The notes under the pieces: model-generated
Database searches by the model: none
What the model was told of the DNA's origin: nothing
The model's input: only the letters and a program-made list of their open reading frames with translations
Shown: one piece after another, positions 48,842-51,526 of the stretch
Numbering within the stretch: the stretch's first letter is position 1
How the letters are laid out: the number at the start of each line of letters is the position of its first letter
Origin: Thermoleophilia bacterium
GTDB lineage: Bacteria; Actinomycetota; Thermoleophilia; Miltoncostaeales; Miltoncostaeaceae
Direction of reading: 5' to 3'
NCBI GenBank assembly: GCA_028285405.1
Contig: JANQPH010000040.1
Coordinates: 1-52,104, forward strand
Length of the DNA: 52,104 nt
Made by a program: the position numbers and the translations under genes

Positions 48842-49714
48842 GTGATCCGGGTGGCGGGGCCAAGCGCGACGGTCCGCGACGAGCTGGGCGAGCACGAGGC
48901 GCGGCTGCCGGCCGGCCGGGGGCGGGAGCGGCTCGTCGCGGGCGACCGGGTGATCGTGCGCGCGCGTGGGGACGAGCTCCTCGTGGAGGGGCTGGAGCCA
49001 CGGACCACGGTGCTCGAGCGGGCCGACGGGCACTCCCGTCGATCCCGACCGCTGGTGGCGAACGCCGATCTCGCGATCGTGATGACCTCGGTCGTGGACC
49101 CGCCGCTGCGTCCGGACATCGTCGACCGATACCTGGTTGCGGCGGCCGTCGGGGGCCTCGAGGCGGCGATCGCGATCACCAAGGTCGACCTCGAGCACGA
49201 TCGGGCCGTCTTCGACGAGGTCTGTGCGACCTATCGGCGCATCGGCCACAGCGTGATCGCGGGGGATGCCCGGTCCCGGGAGTTCGTCGAGGCGACTCGT
49301 GAGCTGATCGGCGGCCGGGTCGCGGCGCTCGTGGGTCCGTCCGGTGTCGGCAAGTCCACGCTGGCGGCGGCACTGACCGGGGTGGAGCGCGCGGTCGGGG
49401 AGGTCAGCCAGAAGGCCGGGACCGGGCGCCACACCACGACCGATCCGCGCCTGCTCCCCCTCCCCGACGGGGGAGCGATCGTCGACACCGCGGGGGTTCG
49501 GACGTTCCACCTGCCGGCGCTCGACGTGCGGAGTGTCGAGGCGGGCTTCCCCGACGTCGCGGCCGCGGCGGAGCGGTGTCGGTTTCGTGGCTGCAACCAC
49601 GTCGGCGAGGACGGCTGCGCGGTTCCGGGCGCGGTCTCGCCGGACCGTCTGGAGTCGTATCGACGCATACTCGAAGAGGTCGGAGCCTTGACCCGCCGCG
49701 CTCCCCACGCGTAA
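48842..49714 (+). CDS. rsgA: Ribosome small-subunit-dependent GTPase RsgA (YjeQ)
   Basis: 290-aa circularly permuted GTPase that assists 30S maturation. N-terminal OB-fold (about 1-65), then G motifs in permuted order: TKVDLEHD (G4) before GPSGVGKST (G1), then GTGRHTTTD (G2) and DTAGVR (G3). The C-terminal zinc site is CRFRGCNHVGEDGC. GTG 48842 gives a full OB fold; the nearest GGAG is about 15 nt upstream, so it may be translated by coupling with pyrE. Confidence 0.92.
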   Translation: MIRVAGPSATVRDELGEHEARLPAGRGRERLVAGDRVIVRARGDELLVEGLEPRTTVLERADGHSRRSRPLVANADLAIVMTSVVDPPLRPDIVDRYLVAAAVGGLEAAIAITKVDLEHDRAVFDEVCATYRRIGHSVIAGDARSREFVEATRELIGGRVAALVGPSGVGKSTLAAALTGVERAVGEVSQKAGTGRHTTTDPRLLPLPDGGAIVDTAGVRTFHLPALDVRSVEAGFPDVAAAAERCRFRGCNHVGEDGCAVPGAVSPDRLESYRRILEEVGALTRRAPHA

Positions 49715-49717
49715 CTT
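49688..49717 (+). promoter_or_regulatory. Sigma-70-type promoter of the TGWE-repeat gene
   Basis: TTGACC (49688-49693), 18-nt spacer, TAACTT (49712-49717). This is one of the strongest promoters in the window and lies inside the end of rsgA. Transcription would start near 49724, giving a 78-nt leader that ends in AAGGGAG before ATG 49802. Confidence 0.6.
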
Positions 49718-49729
49718 CGTGTCGACACG
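49718..49729. promoter_or_regulatory. 12-bp perfect palindrome at the start of transcription
   Basis: CGTGTCGACACG is directly downstream of the -10 and spans the expected +1. This is a classic position for a repressor operator. A partial echo (TGACACGAC) lies about 18 nt downstream. Confidence 0.4.
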
Positions 49730-49801
49730 CACGAACCTGCGCGTCTGACACGACAAAATTCCGGTGGTCGAGGGTCGAACCGGTCTCTTGAAGGGAGCCG
49801 A

Positions 49802-50614
49802 ATGAGCAGCACGAGCCCTGTCGGAGGGACGAGCGGGCGGCAGCGTCGCTTTTATCCCCCAATCGCGGGTGCTGCCCAGAAGACCGGGTGGGAGGCCCTC
49901 GACAAGTGGGTCGGCGGCTCGGGCGGCAGCGACGCACCGGCTTCAGGTGGTGGCAAGACCGGCTGGGAAGCCCTTTCGAGCTGGGTGTCCGACCAGCCCG
50001 CCGGGCCGCAGGAGCCGTCCGGCATGTCCGAGGCGGCCAGCACGGGCAAGACCGGCTGGGAGGCGCTTGGCAAGTGGGTCTCGGACCAGCCCGCGGCCGA
50101 GGAGCCGGCCGGCATGTCCGAGGCGGCCAGCACGGGCAAGACCGGCTGGGAGGCGCTTGGCAAGTGGGTCTCGGACCAGCCCGCCCCCGCCGAGCCAGCT
50201 GGGATGGCGTCGAAGGGGACGACCGGTTGGGAAGCGCTCGACAAGTGGGTCGGTGACTCGGGCGGCGGCCAGGCCGCGGCGCCTTCCGGTGGCGGCAAGA
50301 CCGGCTGGGAAGCGCTCGACAAGTGGGTCGGCGATGGCGACGGCGGCCAGGCCGCGGCCGCGCCTTCCGGCGGTGGCGGCAAGACCGGCTGGGAAGCGCT
50401 CGACAAGTGGGTCGGCGACGGCGGCGGAGCTGCCGCGCCTTCCGGCGGCGGTGGCAAGACCGGCTGGGAGGACCTCGACAAGTGGGTCAGCTCGGACGCG
50501 GCCCCGAGCGGCGACGCTGCGGCCGGTGCCGCGGCGAGCGCGGCCGACGAGGCGCCGGCCAAGCAGGAGGGCGGCGGGTTCATGGCCTTCCTGAAGAGGA
50601 TCTTCGGCGGCTGA
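49802..50614 (+). CDS. Unknown protein with eight TGWEALDKWV-like repeats
   Basis: 270 aa; no known family. A basic N-terminus (SGRQRRFYPP) is followed by eight copies of an 11-residue motif, consensus TGWEAL(D/G)KWV(G/S), starting at residues 28, 53, 84, 114, 141, 167, 195 and 220. Spacers of 14-20 residues are rich in Gly, Ala, Ser and Pro. W-x-x-L-x-x-W-V would put both Trp and the Leu on one face of a short helix. The C-terminus, after an Ala-rich acidic stretch, is a basic amphipathic MAFLKRIFGG. No signal peptide or TM. It has its own promoter and SD (AAGGGAG). A multivalent scaffold of short linear motifs with a membrane-contacting tail is the likeliest reading; a structural or storage role is possible. 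Confidence 0.85.
   Translation: MSSTSPVGGTSGRQRRFYPPIAGAAQKTGWEALDKWVGGSGGSDAPASGGGKTGWEALSSWVSDQPAGPQEPSGMSEAASTGKTGWEALGKWVSDQPAAEEPAGMSEAASTGKTGWEALGKWVSDQPAPAEPAGMASKGTTGWEALDKWVGDSGGGQAAAPSGGGKTGWEALDKWVGDGDGGQAAAAPSGGGGKTGWEALDKWVGDGGGAAAPSGGGGKTGWEDLDKWVSSDAAPSGDAAAGAAASAADEAPAKQEGGGFMAFLKRIFGG
50019..50184 (+). repeat. Two 76-bp identical direct repeats, period 90 bp
   Basis: Positions 50019-50094 and 50109-50184 are identical, each covering one TGWE motif and its spacer (30 codons per period). Identity at synonymous positions shows a recent in-frame duplication or active homogenisation, while the other motif copies have diverged. Confidence 0.85.
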
Positions 50615-51163: not shown

Positions 51164-51526
51164 GTGTACGCGCTGAACTTCTACTCGCCGCTGTTCGTCG
51201 ACCAGCTCCGGAACGGCCGCAAGACGGCGACGATCCGGCTCGGCGATAAGAGCTCCAAGTACAAGAAGGGCCAGCTGGTCTGGGTCACCGTCGGGCACAG
51301 ACACGGGCCACGGCAGCGCATCTTCACGGCGATCATCGACGACGTCGACGTGAAGCCGCTGCGCGAGCTGACCCAGCGCGACATCGAGCGGGACAATCCG
51401 GAGTTCCGCCTCGTCGACGACACCGTCCACTTCCTCTCCCACCTCTACTCGCGCGACATCACCCTCGACGACACCGTGTCCGTGATCCACTTCAGCGAGG
51501 TCATCGAGTTCCCGTCGCTGAAGTAG
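51164..51526 (+). CDS. ASCH/PUA-like domain protein
   Basis: 120 aa. YALNFYSPLFVDQLRNGRKTATIRLGDKS has the ASCH signature of an early basic loop with KTATIRLG; KYKKGQLVWVTVGHRHGPRQ and the strand-rich rest match the fold. Members bind RNA or hydrolyse modified cytidine. GTG 51164 is used; the overlapping ATG at 51162 is in another frame. Confidence 0.8.
   Translation: MYALNFYSPLFVDQLRNGRKTATIRLGDKSSKYKKGQLVWVTVGHRHGPRQRIFTAIIDDVDVKPLRELTQRDIERDNPEFRLVDDTVHFLSHLYSRDITLDDTVSVIHFSEVIEFPSLK

Follow-up and report, generated by a model that had tools for sequence, protein, structure and literature searches.

What does a bacterium do with a protein that repeats one short tryptophan motif eight times along a chain of low-complexity linkers? 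Such a protein is encoded near the end of the DNA analysed here (52,104 nucleotides, hereafter the window), and the preliminary description of this DNA took it for a cytoplasmic scaffold. The open reading frame, with an ATG start and a product of 270 residues, lies on the forward strand at 49802-50614, where that description had placed it, and it does contain eight motifs, of the form TGWE[A/D]L[D/G/S][K/S]WV (Table 1). Outside the motifs, Gly, Ala, Pro and Ser make up 68% of the residues. The claim that the protein has no known domain was borne out by Pfam, NCBIfam, PHROG and PDB sequence searches with the 270 residues, which gave no match; Foldseek with the AF2 model, a model of low confidence, gave none either, and a literature search for TGWEAL found no paper containing the string. 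A Tat signal was considered for the leader, RRF(L/Y)PP, and was rejected because no hydrophobic region follows it in the sequence. We conclude that this is a new, previously undescribed protein family, which puts a known working principle into a new arrangement.

Table 1. Features of the repeat gene and its upstream region, in window coordinates.
Feature	Position	Strand	Basis or remark
Promoter: -35 TTGACC 49688-49693, 18-bp spacer, -10 TAACTT 49712-49717	49688..49717	+	sequence; overlaps rsgA end
Palindrome TTCGTGTCGACACGCACGAA, candidate operator	49716..49735	.	overlaps end of -10 box
Ribosome-binding-site-like AAGGGAG	49791..49797	+	read from sequence
Repeat protein gene	49802..50614	+	270 aa plus stop; orthologues in 35/42 family genomes
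N-terminal leader RRFYPPIAGAA	49844..49876	+	alignment; varied form RF-x-PP-x-AG(G/A)A kept outside genus g12
Motif 1 TGWEALDKWV	49883..49912	+	sequence; AF2 helix 31-37
Motif 2 TGWEALSSWV	49958..49987	+	sequence; AF2 helix 54-63
Motif 3 TGWEALGKWV	50051..50080	+	sequence; AF2 helix 85-94
Motif 4 TGWEALGKWV	50141..50170	+	sequence; AF2 helix 115-124
Motif 5 TGWEALDKWV	50222..50251	+	sequence; AF2 helix 142-151
Motif 6 TGWEALDKWV	50300..50329	+	sequence; AF2 helix 169-176
Motif 7 TGWEALDKWV	50384..50413	+	sequence; AF2 helix 197-205
Motif 8 TGWEDLDKWV	50459..50488	+	sequence; AF2 helix 223-229
C-terminal amphipathic tail GGGFMAFLKRIFGG, MinD-MTS-like putative membrane anchor	50570..50611	+	AF2 helix 259-268, MinD likeness

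Protein searches found the repeat protein in 35 of 42 Miltoncostaeales-type genomes, which are all the genomes of the order in the sample, and rsgA lies directly upstream of the gene wherever that flank is assembled. Of the seven genomes without a match, four gave no rsgA at the cut-off applied, a fifth has just an apparent paralogue of it, and in the remaining two rsgA extends as far as the end of its contig; because these assemblies lack the locus or are broken there, gene loss is established in none. When 399 Thermoleophilia, of which 357 lie outside the family, and 396 Actinomycetota were searched with a profile, family members were returned and a single other match (G170, E 0.008), which we attribute to chance since it has a lone vague motif and neither repeats nor a tail. 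A phage or plasmid origin was rejected, as searches of phage, plasmid and viral collections gave no match. The repeat protein is a conserved, order-restricted family. Neither a characterised relative in the databases nor an orthologue with an unconserved motif came to light. This Miltoncostaeales-type locus also occurs in public MAG records that bear the names Bifidobacterium breve or Acidobacteria (L041, L047, L044) and look misnamed.

Complete orthologues have between 2 and 14 motifs, 22–48 residues apart, and the motif is conserved throughout. The near relatives G039, G035 and G041 have three, four and five copies respectively, indicating that repeat units come and go quickly. Nearly all the sequences are metagenome assemblies, in which repeat counts may be collapsed.

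The motif has been preserved through this turnover. Among 164 motifs T1, G2, W3, E4 and L6 are invariant, the search pattern itself fixing T, G, W, E and L; a loose scan for decayed copies found none. Position 5 is mostly Ala, position 7 Asp or Glu, position 8 Lys and position 10 Val, with one Ile. The pN/pS ratio is about 0.10 for motifs within genes and 0.16 between genes, as against 0.70 and 0.85 for the linker codons that follow them, these ratios being descriptive because the sequence pairs are non-independent. The motif is written in 79 distinct DNA codings, which, together with its low pN/pS, argues that its sameness is not merely a product of recent duplication. The motif residues are therefore under strong purifying selection and the linkers are not, in agreement with what had been supposed of the motif at the outset; we have here a repeated, selected motif on variable linkers that appear disordered. 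The motif is also almost confined to this gene. All eight matches to the DNA pattern for W-E-x-L-x-x-W-[V/I/M] in the 2.4 Mb source genome lie inside it, the reversed control giving one match, and among the matches listed for the 42 family genomes few lie outside the repeat gene, roughly as many as the reversed control gives.

The pattern W-x-x-L-x-x-W-V, described earlier as invariant, is so within the window protein but not across the family, where position 9 is Trp in 156 of the 164 motifs, His in seven and Tyr in one. The exceptions fall in four genomes of three genera (loci L097 in G007, L098 in G017, L096 in G016 and L099 in G008), in which every readable repeat reads TGWEAL(E/D)(K/Q)HV apart from the one Tyr. 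These genomes occupy two places on the RsgA tree, so that at least two changes from Trp to His are needed. Contig ends truncate two of the four genes after a single motif, and the concerted nature of the change rests mainly on G007, with four repeats, and G017, with two.

AF2 models the window protein with a short helix at each of the eight motifs and a further helix in the tail. Mean pLDDT is 56, and only the tail is modelled with confidence, its last ten-residue block reaching 89; low values elsewhere are as expected if the chain is disordered. Most of the motif helices are not formed in the model of the G013 orthologue, and the motif helices are thus not robust.

The tail is the second conserved element. 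A sequence of the form G[F/L]xxxL[K/R]x[L/F/V/I]F[G/S/T]G closes 26 of the 27 complete orthologues; it is amphipathic, with a charge of +2 to +3. The membrane-targeting sequence (MTS) of MinD is reportedly a transplantable lipid-binding helix (Szeto 2003, cited in PMC13246001). In E. coli it reads KGFLKRLFGG (PMC5471200), and the tail GGGFMAFLKRIFGG aligns with it. The pattern L-K-R-[hydrophobic]-F-G-G matches once in each of six genomes, every time at the end of the repeat gene. No MinD in the source genome scores above the curated cut-off. The segment GFMAFLKRIFGG (muH 0.59, charge +2) is strictly C-terminal and helical in the AF2 model, a short amphipathic helix with a hydrophobic face and basic residues. 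The HeliQuest discrimination score, 0.944 x muH + 0.33 x charge, is meant for 18-residue windows; this formula classes the tail, but not the motif, as lipid-binding. A match over ten residues can arise by convergence. The tail has a pN/pS of 0.48 in the anchored comparison (a value of 0.84 was discarded because the tails compared, some ending in an extra Lys and some lacking it, were out of register), and M, W, F, I, L and V interchange at its hydrophobic positions. Its evolution is physico-chemical, whereas that of the motif is identity-fixed.

In the 27th complete orthologue, that of G013 (L101:1910-2680), a predicted transmembrane helix, AMFAGVSAIGWALGIALLVIGVVILIVALLS, stands in frame in place of the tail; the other frames there contain no amphipathic tail, and AF2 gives the C-terminus as one 28-residue hydrophobic helix with pLDDT 88–97. 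Because an amphipathic and a transmembrane helix share little but membrane attachment, we regard this swap, found in one genome, a MAG, as the strongest evidence for the role of the tail. We infer, with good support, that the tail anchors the protein to the membrane. The preliminary assignment to the cytoplasm should be revised in view of this membrane-targeting-type helix; the protein is probably not freely cytoplasmic and would better be placed at the cytoplasmic face of the membrane.

The gene also appears to have its own control region. TTGACC, an 18 bp spacer and TA(A/G)(G/C)TT recur in the corresponding position before the orthologues in several genera outside g12; a generic consensus scan did not pick up the window promoter. 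The palindrome TTYGTGY-N6-RCACRAA has its sole genome-wide match at the repeat-gene promoter in the source genome (G000), G004, G008 and G019, and is found at orthologous promoters in several genera, there too overlapping the end of the -10 box, either exactly or with small departures; the promoter–palindrome arrangement is absent from genus g12. The N6 spacing resembles that of CRP/FNR-family sites. A second copy of the palindrome in genus g5 (L124:1501-1520, L125:1501-1520) precedes the gene for a double-zinc-ribbon-like protein of about 100 residues, a target that is missing from the source genome, and no function for the repeat protein follows from such a regulon. Nor do the neighbours say much about a partner, since the order nfu-pyrE-rsgA-nudix-ASCH-groES is generally kept and aldolase or desaturase genes follow the repeat gene in some genera. 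Two features of this neighbourhood may be recorded in their own right. The ASCH-domain protein (51164-51526 of the window, and orthologues) is 75–88% identical family-wide, far above rsgA and nudix, and some members have a second, divergent RsgA-like gene (G009:C130, G014:C70, L119 in G021:C516).

The reading that we favour, with a probability of roughly 0.6, is that the repeat protein is a membrane-tethered, multivalent short-linear-motif scaffold: a string of Trp motifs appears to be clipped to the membrane, probably holding many copies of a partner there. Like the tail of MinD, the C-terminal 10–14 residues would form a short cationic amphipathic helix that rests in the inner plasma-membrane leaflet, and a disordered Gly/Ala/Ser/Pro chain would extend from this anchor into the cytoplasm with 2–14 copies of TGWEAL(D/E)KWV. 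Each copy may fold as a short amphipathic helix, whose face of Trp, Leu, Trp or His, and Val would dock in one common type of groove on a partner in the cytoplasm. A single tether bearing many such weak copies could then gather and cluster the partner at the membrane, with valency set by a copy number that is free to drift while motif identity is fixed. The preliminary description had reached the motif and the class of scaffold but had missed the tail, its transmembrane replacement, the change from Trp to His, the confinement to a single order and the conserved promoter with its palindrome. Besides the low AF2 confidence and fragile motif helices, the scope for convergence in the tail match and the metagenomic origin of most sequences, two observations count against a scaffold. 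The proposed docking face is not absolutely fixed, the second Trp being His or Tyr in four genomes, and the motif, with a muH of 0.72, is amphipathic in its own right, so that it could bind lipid or itself.

Were the motifs to bind lipid, they would serve as weak amphipathic in-plane anchors beside the strong tail, and the protein would be a membrane coat or stress protectant, for which LEA proteins, synuclein and apolipoproteins are the models. The hydrophobic face of the motif helix does include Trp, the linkers of G012, G007 and G006 have stretches rich in Ala, Lys and Glu that look amphipathic, and the segment before the tail in G006 is weakly like apolipoprotein PF01442 (E 0.0035). We nevertheless consider a coat unlikely. 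A strong anchor is already there, and no lipid-binding family cut-off is reached, the best score, for PF01442 in one orthologue, being 17.5 bits against a cut-off of 90. The polar T, G and E of the motif are invariant, unlike the tail with its swapping hydrophobics, and the invariant Glu and a net charge of about -1 are more in keeping with recognition of a protein than with binding to lipid.

That the motifs bind each other, forming a membrane-associated condensate or network of homotypic stickers with no dedicated partner, seems to us improbable, even though the layout is that of stickers and spacers, with Gly/Ala/Ser/Pro spacers, 22–48-residue spacing and a labile copy number. All readable repeats of a protein in the His genomes share one class of residue at position 9, as if they paired; homogenisation of the repeats explains this as well, and the orthologues with only two or three motifs (G017, and G027, G029, G031, G032 and G039 in g12) would be sparse for a network. 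The idea of a low-complexity minisatellite, which stays in frame through the period of its repeats and has no selected function, can draw on GC-rich DNA, tandem units and rapid change in copy number, but is already contradicted by the pN/pS of motif and linker, by the family-wide conservation of position and tail and by a promoter with palindrome in several genera, and we give it hardly any credence.

A more specific version of the membrane-tethered scaffold is possible, although we hold it tentatively and rather doubt it: a cortical organiser peculiar to the order, built as a sticker-and-spacer polymer with a MinD-type tail and controlled by its own near-unique operator, might cluster a core cell-division, envelope or metabolic machine at the membrane through the Trp motif, Trp and His switching at the recognition residue together with the partner. 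To our knowledge, few bacterial membrane scaffolds are built of repeated short motifs. The gene is compact, single-copy and present in every family genome with a fully assembled locus, and it offers a direct route to the partner. Anchor, spacer and motif are separable, and nature has already swapped the anchor, from amphipathic to transmembrane helix, and one residue, from Trp to His; the 2–14 copies form a natural series for how valency controls clustering at membranes.

Several known systems share parts of this design. LEA and apolipoprotein-like repeat proteins are likewise disordered and Ala-rich, and some linkers here are amphipathic as theirs are, but the repeat protein has a fixed, Trp-rich motif, and the window protein gave no match at all to the LEA or apolipoprotein Pfam models, let alone one at the cut-off. 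LEA- or apolipoprotein-like segments rich in Ala, Lys and Glu, in linkers or before the tail, occur at L024 (G006), L019 (G005), L095 (G012) and L097 (G007). In the endocytic adaptors AP180 and epsin, a membrane-anchored disordered chain bears repeated short motifs in a fishing-line layout. The repeat protein would match this arrangement if it is attached to the membrane as we propose; the adaptors are eukaryotic, have a folded membrane domain and use DLL/DPW motifs, and we claim no homology. EPYC1, the pyrenoid linker, binds one partner many times through short helical motifs on a disordered chain, a likeness to the predicted helices here, but it is eukaryotic, lacks a membrane tail and has another motif. 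Among bacterial proteins, the alpha-carboxysome scaffold CsoS2 is disordered and binds partners multivalently through short conserved repeats (PMC11365436). Partner binding of this kind would be the shared principle; CsoS2 differs in its VTG and Y repeats, its carboxysome context and its lack of a known membrane tail, and its domain and repeats gave no Pfam or NCBIfam match in the repeat protein at permissive E-values. MinD and the repeat protein share a short cationic amphipathic helix at the extreme C-terminus, with F-L-K-R-[L/I]-F-G-G. The 270 residues contain no deviant Walker ATPase domain of the MinD type, and it is the tail alone that resembles MinD, set here on a disordered chain of repeats.
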